A stretch of DNA of 64,000 nucleotides from Actinomycetota bacterium (lineage in GTDB: Bacteria > Actinomycetota > Acidimicrobiia > Acidimicrobiales > Ilumatobacteraceae), in NCBI GenBank assembly GCA_009702045.1, contig WLIV01000015.1, positions 1 through 64,000 on the forward strand, written 5' to 3'. Positions within the stretch are counted from its first letter, which is position 1. Each line of letters starts with the position of its first letter. The notes under the pieces are model-generated. The model saw nothing but the letters and a program-made list of their open reading frames with translations, did not search any database and was not told where the DNA came from. The translations under genes and the position numbers were made by a program. Positions 37,586-40,528 of the stretch are shown piece by piece.

Positions 37586-38109
37586 GGCGTCACCAATGCC
37601 TGCTGCTTCACCTTCGCGTACTGCTCGAACTCCTGCTGGATCGGCGTCGCCAAGTGCTGCGTGGACGCAGCACCCGTTCGCTGCACGATCGCCACTTCTT
37701 CGGGATCGACGCTGACGAAGTTCGTCTGCTTCGCTGGCCCCATACCGAGCGCAGCTGCCTGCTCGGACAAGCGGCCCGGCGAGCGCAACTCCGCGCGTTC
37801 ACGGCGCAACACGTCGTACTGATCGCGACCCTTGCGAATATCGCGGTCGAGGGTGTCCAGCGTGAGTTGGCGACGAGCGATCTGCGTCTGGAACGCTGCG
37901 GCACCCAACATCAGACCGAACACCACCACGCTGACTGCGGCGATCAGGCGGGCCGTACGTTTGCGTCGCGGCACCACCGCCAACCGCGTACTCGGGGCGG
38001 AGGCCAACGGCGCAGTGCGCTTGACCATCGCGCGGGCATCGGCAGCGCCGCCGCCATGCATCCGCTCACGAACGGCCGCCGCCCGCTCATTGCGGGCTGC
38101 GAGTGCCAT
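37582..38109 (-). CDS. ftsL: Divisome protein FtsL
   Basis: A small bitopic protein of the FtsQ-L-B complex. A basic N-terminal tail leads to a membrane helix at about 53-73 (LIAAVSVVVFGLMLGAAAFQ), a coiled coil with RRQLTLDTLDRDIRKGRDQY, and a C-terminal part ending at residue 175. Identification rests on position between rsmH and ftsI plus topology, since FtsL sequences diverge. The ATG overlaps the rsmH stop by one base (TGATG). Confidence 0.85.
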   Translation of the reverse strand: MALAARNERAAAVRERMHGGGAADARAMVKRTAPLASAPSTRLAVVPRRKRTARLIAAVSVVVFGLMLGAAAFQTQIARRQLTLDTLDRDIRKGRDQYDVLRRERAELRSPGRLSEQAAALGMGPAKQTNFVSVDPEEVAIVQRTGAASTQHLATPIQQEFEQYAKVKQQALVTP

Positions 38110-39068
38110 CAGCGTCGTCCGCGTGTGGGCGAGTCGACGATGCGCTCGACGACGCGCAGTCGGGCGCTGCTGGCCCGACGGTTGGTGAGTTGCTCATCCT
38201 TCGACGGGGTACGCGGGATGCCACGGACGAGACGCACGGTCTGGATCGCGTCGCACACGCAGGGCAGTTCGGGCGGGCACGGGCAGTCGCCCGTTTCCGC
38301 CGAACGCATACGCTCCTTGACGATCCGGTCCTCGCCGGAGTGGTAGGACAGCACCGCCATACGACCGCCGGGCGCGATGCTGCGGATAGCCGAGTCGAGC
38401 GCCACCGGCAGCGACTCGAGCTCGCCGTTGACTTCAATGCGGATCGCCTGGAACGTGCGCTTGGCCGGGTGGCCGCCAGTGCGACGGGCCGCTGCCGGGA
38501 TCGCCGAGGTGACCACCTCGGCCAGCTCGGCAGTGGAATCGATGGGCCGCGCGGCAACGATCGCGTTGGCGATGCGCTTGGCGAAACGCTCGTCGCCGTA
38601 TTGCTGCAGCACGCGGGTGAGCTGTGCCGCGTCGTAGCCGTTCACTACATCCTTGGCCGACCACAGCTGACTCTGGTCCATGCGCATGTCCAGCACCGAG
38701 TCGTTGCGGTAGCTGAAGCCACGGTCCGCACGGTCGAGCTGCGGCGAGCTCACGCCGAGGTCGAAGAGGGCACCGGACAGGGATTCGATGGAGAGTGCTT
38801 CCATGGCTTCGTCGAGGCGATCGAACCGACAGTGGTACACCTTCACCCGATCGCCGAACCGGGCGAGACGCTCCTGCGCTGCGGCAAGTGCGGCTTCGTC
38901 ACGGTCGATCCCGAGAATCCCGATGTGGGGCCAACGCTCCAGCAGTGCTGCAGCATGACCACCACCTCCGAGGGTGGCGTCGAGCACGAATCCGGCAGGC
39001 ACTGCGGCGAACAGTTCGACGATTTCGTCGACCATGACGGGCAGATGATGGAAGGGTTCGGTGCTCAT
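38109..39068 (-). CDS. rsmH: 16S rRNA m4C1402 methyltransferase RsmH (MraW)
   Basis: SAM-dependent N4-methylation of C1402 in 16S rRNA. It has the SAM motif DATLGGGGHAAALL, FDLGVSSPQLDRADRGFSY, and the C-terminal AVLSYHSGEDRIVKE and RVVERIV. It has 319 residues. The ATG at 39068 is family-conserved and has GGGTAGGG upstream; the frame stays open further upstream without homology. A 148-base gap after mraZ contains no other gene. Confidence 0.96.
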   Translation of the reverse strand: MSTEPFHHLPVMVDEIVELFAAVPAGFVLDATLGGGGHAAALLERWPHIGILGIDRDEAALAAAQERLARFGDRVKVYHCRFDRLDEAMEALSIESLSGALFDLGVSSPQLDRADRGFSYRNDSVLDMRMDQSQLWSAKDVVNGYDAAQLTRVLQQYGDERFAKRIANAIVAARPIDSTAELAEVVTSAIPAAARRTGGHPAKRTFQAIRIEVNGELESLPVALDSAIRSIAPGGRMAVLSYHSGEDRIVKERMRSAETGDCPCPPELPCVCDAIQTVRLVRGIPRTPSKDEQLTNRRASSARLRVVERIVDSPTRGRR

Positions 39069-39216
39069 CGCAGCCCTACCCTGATCAGGTGGTGCGGAGC
39101 GGTAGCTCGGTGGTGTGCCGGTGTGCTGCACGGTCGTGCGGCGGCCTCTTCCTCCTCTTCTGCGTGACTGTGTTCCGTGTGGACGTGACGGTGGGTTGGC
39201 GGATGGGACGGGTGGC

Positions 39217-39636
39217 TCACTCGTCGTCACCGGCGAGGTGCCCAGTGCCCTCGTCGTTGACGCGGGCAAAGCGATCGGTGGACCAGATCTCGAGGCGGTC
39301 GAAGTTGCCGGCGACCATCACAGTGCTGGCGGTGGCGAGTTCGGCGTACGCACGCAACTGCTCGTCGACGTTGACCCGACCCTGCTTGTCGAGGCTCACC
39401 AACGTGGCCGACATGGCCAACGCACGGGCCTGGTTGCGAGTGACTTCGCCGGAGCGCACTTGGGCCGCGATGGTCGCAGCCTCGTGCTCGAAGACTGCAG
39501 CAGGAACGACGGTGACGCACTTGTCGAGCCCCTTGGCCAGGTAGCAGTGCTCACCGAGGCGGTCACGGAACGGCGCCGGCAAGGCCAGTCGGCCCTTGTC
39601 GTCGAGATTGCGCTCGTACGCACCGACGAACAACAC
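39217..39636 (-). CDS. mraZ: Transcriptional regulator MraZ
   Basis: AbrB-like double-barrel DNA-binding protein that represses the division/cell-wall operon by binding TGGGG repeats in its own promoter. Two repeats of the DKGR motif are visible: LDDKGRLALPAPFRDRL near the N-terminus and LDKQGRVNVDEQLRAYA in the second half. It has 139 residues. GTG start at 39636. It heads the whole cluster; the operator lies about 70-105 bases upstream. Confidence 0.95.
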   Translation of the reverse strand: MLFVGAYERNLDDKGRLALPAPFRDRLGEHCYLAKGLDKCVTVVPAAVFEHEAATIAAQVRSGEVTRNQARALAMSATLVSLDKQGRVNVDEQLRAYAELATASTVMVAGNFDRLEIWSTDRFARVNDEGTGHLAGDDE

Positions 39637-39704
39637 GTCGCGTTCACCACCTTCCCTGCTCGAGCGGTGCCTGCCTCGGCTGGATACGGGCCTGCACCCT
39701 GAAT

Positions 39705-39748
39705 CCCCACTTCACCCCATTCTGCCCCCCACATCCCCCCAATGTCAA
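39705..39748 (-). promoter_or_regulatory. mraZ operon promoter with MraZ-box operator
   Basis: On the minus strand TTGACA (39748..39743) and CAGAAT (39724..39719) are 18 bases apart, a near-consensus housekeeping-sigma promoter. Four TGGGG boxes lie at 39741..39737, 39731..39727, 39719..39715 and 39709..39705. Boxes within each pair start 10 bases apart and the pairs are 12 apart, so two boxes fill the spacer and two lie over the start point. This matches the known MraZ operator of TGGGN repeats with 5-base spacers. The leader to mraZ is about 75 bases. Confidence 0.85.
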
Positions 39749-39813
39749 CCACCCCGCGCCACTTTCCCCCACCAGCGCCCCGGTTTCTGGGAAGAATCCG
39801 TCCCCAAACTCGA

Positions 39814-39858
39814 TCTGGGAAGGGTTGGTCCCGGAAACCGGAACCAACCCTTCCCAGA
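39814..39858. terminator. Long hairpin between lipoate-ligase-like gene and mraZ
   Basis: Two 21-base arms pair at 20 of 21 positions around an AAA loop (39835-39837). It lies about 20 bases past the stop of the minus-strand gene ending at 39878 and about 65 bases before the mraZ promoter. It probably insulates the division operon from read-through. There is no T tract, and it is symmetrical enough to act in both directions. Confidence 0.6.
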
Positions 39859-39877
39859 CCGGGCGGGAACCTCGACG

Positions 39878-40528
39878 TCAGGCGAGTTGGTCGACCAGCG
39901 CCGCGCGCAGCACCGTCTCAGCGGCGGTCACCACTGCCGCCACCGGCGCCAGGACGGCGGACAGCGGCTTCGGTGCAGCGACCAGCGAGGCCACCATCTC
40001 TGGCCGCCATTGCAGATGACACATCGATTGGAAGCGCACCCAGTCGCGTGTTCGCCGCTGGCTGATGCCGACCAGCTTGGCGTCGGCGCTCATCAACTCG
40101 CCGGTGCCGATACCGGCCCAGCACACTGCCGTCGACCACTCCGAGCGCACCAGCGGACCGCGGTGCACCATCGAGTCGGCACCCTCTCCCAACATGGCCA
40201 GCGCGCGTTGCCAAAGTTCGCCGACCCACACCATCGACGCGCCGACATCGGCCGACCACAGCGAATCGCCGGTCGGGATCACGAGGTCGAGCCACACGAA
40301 CTCGCCGGGCAGCAACAGCACCGCTCCCCCGCCGCTGCGCCGACGCACGACCACGACACCCAGCTCGGTTGCCGCGACGAGGTCGATCGAATCGTCGGGC
40401 TGTGTTGAACCGAGCACCAACGTCGGCCGCTCTACGGTGTGGAACGTGGCAGAACGATCAGCTGCGGGGTCATCTGCGTGAAACGCCCCGGCATCGCCGT
40501 GCGACTGCTCGACGCGCCATGGCTGCAT
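39878..40528 (-). CDS. Lipoate-protein ligase-like (BPL/LplA family) protein
   Basis: A cofactor transferase-fold protein of 216 residues. RRRSGGGAVLLLPGEFVW is the lipoate/octanoate-binding loop of the family, and the lysine in DAKLVGISQRR matches the catalytic Lys of LplA-type enzymes, so lipoyl or octanoyl transfer is plausible. The C-terminal accessory domain of E. coli LplA is absent. Substrate specificity is uncertain. The ATG is preceded by TACGCT at 7 bases (leaderless). Confidence 0.75.
   Translation of the reverse strand: MQPWRVEQSHGDAGAFHADDPAADRSATFHTVERPTLVLGSTQPDDSIDLVAATELGVVVVRRRSGGGAVLLLPGEFVWLDLVIPTGDSLWSADVGASMVWVGELWQRALAMLGEGADSMVHRGPLVRSEWSTAVCWAGIGTGELMSADAKLVGISQRRTRDWVRFQSMCHLQWRPEMVASLVAAPKPLSAVLAPVAAVVTAAETVLRAALVDQLA

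Follow-up and report, generated by a model that had tools for sequence, protein, structure and literature searches.

A repeat array interlocked with the mraZ core promoter as a probable variant of the MraZ operator in Ilumatobacteraceae

Few regulators of bacterial division genes are as widespread as MraZ, and to our knowledge it is not settled how the ring-shaped MraZ oligomer reads a row of repeats. The locus described here lies in a window of 64,000 nucleotides (the whole stretch of DNA that was analysed) from an actinomycetotal bacterium of the family Ilumatobacteraceae. It raises the question of what a row of TGGGG boxes means when it lies on the hexamers of the mraZ promoter and when one of its steps is 12 nt instead of 10 nt.

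The mraZ gene is located at 39217..39636 on the minus strand, where an ORF with a GTG start encodes 139 aa and heads the division and cell wall (dcw) cluster. Its product matched PF02381 in two stretches (E 1.8e-22, 79.5 bits against a curated cut-off of 23). A motif of the D-x-x-x-R type is expected in both halves of MraZ, and the product has D-x-K-G-R and D-x-Q-G-R, one per half, in alignment with other MraZ proteins; D12, K14, G15, and R16 as well as D83, Q85, G86, and R87 were invariant among the seven MraZ aligned. The rsmH (mraW) gene of the same cluster lies downstream of mraZ at 38109..39068 on the minus strand, its start being placed, as an inferred choice, at the ATG of MSTEPFHH, and PF01795 matched the stretch 38112-39167 with an E value of 2.1e-106. 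After mraZ, the same strand carries rsmH, a 175-aa ORF without a Pfam match, and a penicillin-binding transpeptidase. The gene is the first of the dcw cluster, ahead of rsmH, as is characteristic of the MraZ family, for which solved chains are available in the structure archive (9qlr, 9sx6, 9qlg, and 1n0e).

Both the sequence and a promoter scan indicated a -35 hexamer TTGACA (39743..39748), a spacer of 18 nt, and a -10 hexamer CAGAAT (39719..39724) on the minus strand, 83-112 nt upstream of mraZ, in agreement with the promoter named in the first-pass annotation. This was the sole promoter found in the scan of 39600-39900, with 10 of 12 matches, whereas shuffled sequences gave a mean of 0.1; CAGAAT is not a strong consensus -10. 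The last T of this hexamer (39719) is at the same time the T of the next TGGGG box.

Around the hexamers the minus strand reads TGGGG GAAAG TGGCG CGGGG TGGTT GACAT TGGGG GGATG TGGGG GGCAGAA TGGGG TGAAG TGGGG, in which seven repeats were recognized, all on that strand. Repeat 1 (TGGGG, 39767..39771) lies at a lattice position at offset -23 from the -35, the degenerate repeat 2 (TGGCG, 39757..39761) at offset -13, where the family consensus is TGGGG, and repeat 3 (TGGTT, 39747..39751) at offset -3, where it overlaps the first two bases of the -35. Repeats 4 and 5 (TGGGG, 39737..39741 and 39727..39731) are situated in the spacer at offsets +7 and +17. Repeat 6 (TGGGG, 39715..39719) is fused to the -10 and comes 12 nt after repeat 5, and repeat 7 (TGGGG, 39705..39709) follows 10 nt after repeat 6. 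Judging from the sequence, transcription would be expected to start near 39712, between repeats 6 and 7.

The TGG of the first five repeats begin at exact 10-nt steps (39771, 39761, 39751, 39741, and 39731), three of the five being TGGGG. This run (39771-39731) was the only one in the window with at least four TGG at 10-nt steps when both strands were checked, and three TGG at 10 nt were present in 1 of 638 pieces of 200 nt (both strands). TGGGG alone was counted 108 times in the window against 139 expected and hence was not enriched; the striking feature is the regular spacing of the boxes and not their number. The locus thus contains at least three TGGG-like repeats at a 10-nt period, by which an MraZ operator is recognized. 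The step is not uniformly 10 nt, since a single one, that at the -10, measures 12 nt (and 11 or 12 nt in many relatives), and a uniform step is a description of the printed examples of MraZ operators rather than a demonstrated requirement.

The first-pass annotation had read this locus as an MraZ operator of four TGGGG boxes, two pairs set 12 nt apart, built into the mraZ promoter. The four boxes were confirmed, with starts at 39741, 39731, 39719, and 39709 and steps of 10, 12, and 10 nt, and the 12-nt step is real and lies at the -10. The three repeats further upstream had been missed, however, and because these also follow at 10 nt, the layout is more exactly described as five repeats at 10 nt, a 12-nt step, and two repeats at 10 nt. 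Accordingly, the idea of boxes within the mraZ promoter region was retained, and their conservation is described below, but the array is larger than had been supposed, with seven repeats running through the -35.

Next to this layout, the frequency of related patterns in whole genomes was examined. The pattern TGGGG-N5-TGGGG-N3..12-TGGGG-N5-TGGGG had one match in the 3.65-Mb genome, at the present locus, and the backwards-read control had 0. Chance in G-rich DNA as the source of the array was rejected on the pattern counts, the shuffles, and the rarity of the run. The exact four-box pattern was also tried as an order-wide signature and was rejected as such, with matches in 3 of 298 genomes against 11 control matches in 6 genomes. 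A search for second MraZ targets in the same genome with TGGGG-N4..8-TGGGG yielded 51 sites against 54 in the control, i.e., no excess for this pattern.

The pattern TTGACNNTGGGGN5TGGGG was found at one site each in 57 of 200 family genomes, with 0 in the backwards-read control, and 55 of these 57 sites were directly upstream of mraZ: 28 of the 30 loci that were fetched encode MraZ, and the remaining 27 sites are located 49-135 nt from an MraZ match according to their coordinates. The two exceptions, L311 (G118:C158:7828-7849) and L321 (G467:C96:11087-11108), showed the pattern without MraZ in the fetched stretch; these sites are possibly second MraZ targets or chance occurrences.

Conservation of the array was examined using 70 mraZ upstreams from the family (12 of the same genus and 58 others, 23 genera), drawn from the 184 of 200 family genomes with a match. 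TTGAC was present within 190 nt in 56 of the 70 upstreams and absent in 14. Relative to TTGAC, the 56 upstreams had TGG at -23 in 31, at -13 in 38, at -3 in 43, at +7 in 36, and at +17 in 34. Further downstream, 12 upstreams had TGG at 28 and 18 had it at 29; likewise, 12 had it at 38 and 15 at 39. These peaks were one base wide except for the 28/29 and 38/39 pairs; 6 upstreams had TGG at -12. When the 22 genera were each counted once, the consensus was GTGGgGngAAgTGGGGggAAATGGTTGACAgtGGGGggaagtGGGG, in which offset -3 had frequencies of T 0.97, G 0.88, and G 0.91, and offset -13, where one of the family's most strongly conserved boxes lies, had T 0.82 and four G of 0.84-0.95. Two badly placed upstreams were kept in the counts, namely L101 (match from residue 11) and L035 (last TTGAC not that of the promoter). 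L180, L185, and L186 are further family members outside the counts, the other four of L180-L186 being duplicate genomes.

Within the genus (n = 12), TGG was present at -23 in 10 and at -13 in 9 upstreams, whereas the shuffles gave 0.05 and 0.01. Sequence identity was 0.67 around the -35, a value that includes the alignment anchor, 0.48-0.57 over the rest of the array, and 0.30-0.39 outside. The nearest relative (L034), the MraZ of which is 96% identical, has the +17 box without its T. The alignment of relatives that the first-pass annotation had called for thus turned out in its favor, the boxes and their position in the promoter being conserved in many of them.

These data bear on a narrower reading, in which the operator would consist of only the four boxes of repeats 4-7, forming a pair of MraZ sites that each comprise two repeats at 10 nt and are separated by the 12-nt step, and the upstream TGG would be incidental. 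The window itself speaks for it insofar as repeats 2 and 3 are degenerate (TGGCG and TGGTT) and repeats 4-7 are perfect TGGGG. Nevertheless, -13 is strongly conserved over the 22 genera, and the TGG at -23 and -13 are far above the shuffles in the genus. Because of the conservation at -23 and -13, we judge the restriction to four boxes to be unlikely and prefer the array of seven repeats.

To place the 12-nt step, five sets of mraZ upstreams were compared: genus (12), family (58), rest of the order (57), rest of the phylum (50), and Bacillota (59). The phylum set includes four families of the same class (L215, L228, L296, and L297). L190, L193, L194, and L206 were left out (contig edge, or match away from the gene start), as were L132 (contig edge), L143 (Nocardioides), and L174 (Planctomycetes) from the Bacillota set, and also L179 (Metamycoplasma), L103-L105 (pattern hits), and L106-L116 (duplicate loci). 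Among TGG[GA] pairs of the phylum set, 54 had the 10-nt step (2.1 expected from shuffles), and 11 and 12 nt occurred once each, which is background. Steps of 11 and 12 nt were counted 5 and 4 times in the genus (shuffles 1.5 and 1.1), 20 and 10 times in the family (6.1 and 4.9), and 8 and 11 times in the order (3.5 and 3.8). Other odd steps also exceeded the shuffles, namely 8 and 13 nt in the order set and 7, 11, and 13 nt in Bacillota, indicating that odd steps are not confined to the layout of the window.

Subsequently, a sigma70-type promoter was called for each upstream using fixed weights blind to the boxes. The last T of the -10 fell on TGG in 11 of 12 calls in the genus, 30 of 57 in the family, 44 of 56 in the order, and 33 of 44 in the phylum. 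In 40 dinucleotide shuffles the corresponding mean fractions were 0.23, 0.16, 0.17, and 0.11, and the highest single values 0.80, 0.27, 0.32, and 0.26; since one genus shuffle reached 0.80, the small genus set alone is not decisive for the fused T. A box fused to the -10 is therefore common in these Actinomycetota. In this respect the first-pass annotation, which had regarded the arrangement as unusual, was right about the non-uniform step, whereas the fusion to the -10 is not special to this genome. For Bacillota the fused T was found in 11 of 58 calls against 0.08 in shuffles, but promoter calls there are unreliable, so no promoter layout is claimed for Bacillota.

In most of the family, the boxes at -23, -13, -3, +7, and +17 keep to a register set by the -35. 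Outside the family, the row of boxes tends to follow the -10. When T-20, T-10, T, and T+10 were counted from this last T, three or more of them were TGG in 37 of 56 order and 24 of 44 phylum calls; TGG at -23, -13, and -3 was found in 5, 9, and 9 of the 56 order calls and in 4, 5, and 3 of the 44 phylum calls. Both +7 and +17 were TGG in 23 of the 57 family calls. Among calls with both boxes, a 12-nt step accompanied an 18-nt spacer in 4 genus and 5 family members, and an 11-nt step accompanied a 17-nt spacer in 2 genus and 6 family members; the four phylum calls with both boxes had the 16-nt spacer that a 10-nt step requires. That the step equals the spacer minus 6 is simple arithmetic once both fusions hold and hence is no independent proof; the finding proper is the conservation of both fusions, to the -35 and to the -10.

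The family is mixed in this respect. In genus g11 (L048-L057 and L080), all 10 of 10 calls had boxes at +8 and +18 and the -10 at 28, so that the step of the row is 10 nt throughout. Because g11 keeps such a uniform row set by the -10, both layouts coexist in the family. In another family of the same order, L103 (G663:C306) has TGG at -3, a box at +8, and a 10-nt step across the -10; it is the mirror image of the case in the window, with the slack at the -35.

The same promoter regions were used to weigh whether the G runs act as a promoter G-quadruplex (G4), with the TGG periodicity as a by-product. A four-run G motif fits the window by eye, and 10 of the 12 genus promoter regions contained it as well. 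For Staphylococcus aureus, one report describes a folded G4 downstream of the mraZ promoter that affects expression, and such motifs are said there to be conserved across several bacteria (PMC11796246). On the other hand, among the promoter regions of the wider sets the motif occurred in 12 of 57 from the family, 12 of 56 from the order, 0 of 44 from the phylum, and 0 of 58 from Bacillota, whereas three TGG at exactly 10 nt were found in 39, 12, 29, and 14 of these same regions, respectively; the two counts are equal in the order set (12 and 12) and do not separate the readings there. Furthermore, a G4 requires neither a T before the G runs nor a 10-nt period. The four G runs by which a promoter G4 would be recognized were not conserved in these relatives, and a G4 was rejected as the main conserved element, as its motif becomes scarce beyond the genus, whereas the TGG lattice persists in the family and phylum sets. 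We consider this explanation very unlikely.

A further alternative is that the boxes are used not by MraZ but by some other dcw regulator, for example MtrA. MtrA of Dietzia binds the mraZ promoter region in a gel shift (PMC9602371). However, three TGG at 10 nt were also found in 57 of 59 Bacillota mraZ upstreams (last 200 nt), and the E. coli mraZ upstream has TGGGA, TGGGG, and TGGGA at 10 nt; in both cases MraZ is the reported regulator. We regard assignment of the boxes to another regulator as extremely improbable.

Taken together, these findings point to an MraZ operator of the dcw cluster that is interlocked with the core promoter, consists of two 10-nt lattices, and mediates autorepression by exclusion of RNA polymerase, an explanation that we consider likely. 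In this operator, the seven TGG(GG) repeats would begin some 23 nt ahead of the -35 and reach as far as the transcription start. The first lattice, with a 10-nt period fixed by the -35, would comprise repeats 1-5: TGG stands directly before TTGACA and the next box one base past it, so that TGG-TTGACA-N fills exactly 10 nt. The second lattice, again with a 10-nt period, would comprise repeats 6 and 7 and be fixed by the -10, since this hexamer ends in the T with which repeat 6 begins. A good sigma70-type promoter needs a spacer of 17 or 18 nt, and the two lattices would therefore meet at the spacer length minus 6, that is, at 11 or 12 nt. The 12-nt step is thus best read as a register slip between the boxes set by the -35 and those set by the -10, which the constraint on the spacer may have caused.

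If MraZ oligomers bind this array, as work on MraZ in other bacteria suggests, they would cover the -35, the spacer, the -10, and the start, and RNA polymerase would be excluded; MraZ would then be expected to repress its own gene together with those that follow it. Since the repeats cover all of these elements, bound MraZ should compete with the sigma factor for the same bases.

Comparison with known MraZ operators is consistent with this explanation and indicates where the present one differs. E. coli MraZ has been reported to bind the repeats of its own promoter and to repress it (Eraso 2014, as cited in PMC8475190). As in the window, the E. coli operator has TGGG(A/G) repeats at exact 10-nt steps just upstream of mraZ; unlike in the window, its boxes number three and all come after the -10 (TTGACA-17-GTAAAC, by eye), leaving the spacer and the hexamers free of boxes. 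In Burkholderia cenocepacia, MraZ shifts a fragment with its promoter repeats (PMC7761207, section 2.1.3), and the dcw operator described there resembles the present one in having four repeats with a 10-nt period that overlap the start site, but its repeats are located downstream of the -10 with a uniform step. The Mollicutes MraZ site likewise consists of direct repeats in the mraZ promoter region, although their sequence, AAAGTG[T/G], is a different one (PMC8475190). Other Actinomycetota (order and phylum sets) share the fusion of a box to the final T of the -10 and often have boxes in the spacer, but tend to use a single 10-nt register set by the -10. Among open PMC papers, we found none on mraZ boxes fused to the hexamers or on an 11- or 12-nt step, which does not prove their absence from the literature.

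The array represents a variant, particular to this lineage, of the known MraZ/dcw operator, marked by boxes on the -35 and the -10 and by two registers. By analogy with the known cases, this variant is probably autorepressive by occlusion. Whether the proposal can be generalized, such that the MraZ operator and the core promoter of Actinomycetota form one composite element with bases used by both the sigma factor and MraZ, with a two-register array in much of the family and the spacer dictating the step, appears to us evenly balanced. If so, MraZ must tolerate a slip of 1-2 bp, by bending or opening of the ring or by use of two oligomers, and the strength of the promoter could not evolve independently of the affinity of the operator. 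Promoters with register shifts of 1-2 bp tied to the spacer length would also offer ready tests of the ring geometry and of direct competition with the sigma factor, and the layout of the array would be an easy guide by which to recognize the dcw promoter of uncultured Actinomycetota.

A natural comparison was available in genomes without mraZ. Of 15 genomes searched, 5 yielded no rsmH, and two (L337 and L338) had rsmH at the contig start. In a further one (G759:C12, L330), no match to the Nocardioides MraZ query was obtained, yet PF02381 revealed a divergent mraZ before rsmH. The remaining 7 mraZ-less genomes, of 7-10 Mb, belong to one genus, which represents one event at most; PF02381 had no match in them, and rsmH was present. 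Upstream of rsmH, TTGACC-16-TAAAGT was found in 6 of the 7. The box on the -10 was lost in all 7 (TGA in 6 and TAA in 1), TGG was kept at T-10 in 7 and at T+10 in 2, and three TGG at 10 nt were found in 0 of 7 (300 nt), in contrast to 37 of 50 phylum upstreams with mraZ (200 nt). Judged by sequence, this pattern would fit partial decay of the operator after loss of MraZ, among other possible causes.

Two further features were observed near these promoters. In the window, a hairpin on the minus strand (39800..39870; -58.1 kcal/mol, z -8.9) lies between an lplA-like gene and the mraZ promoter. Its inner stem has 24 pairs, with no U tail and no terminator-like site; it is perhaps a terminator or a mobile inverted repeat and was not counted into the operator. 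In L201, L202, and L204, an extra TGGGG follows the called -10 at a distance of about 20 nt and forms part of a short inverted repeat in the leader (GGCTCCGTGGGGAGCC).
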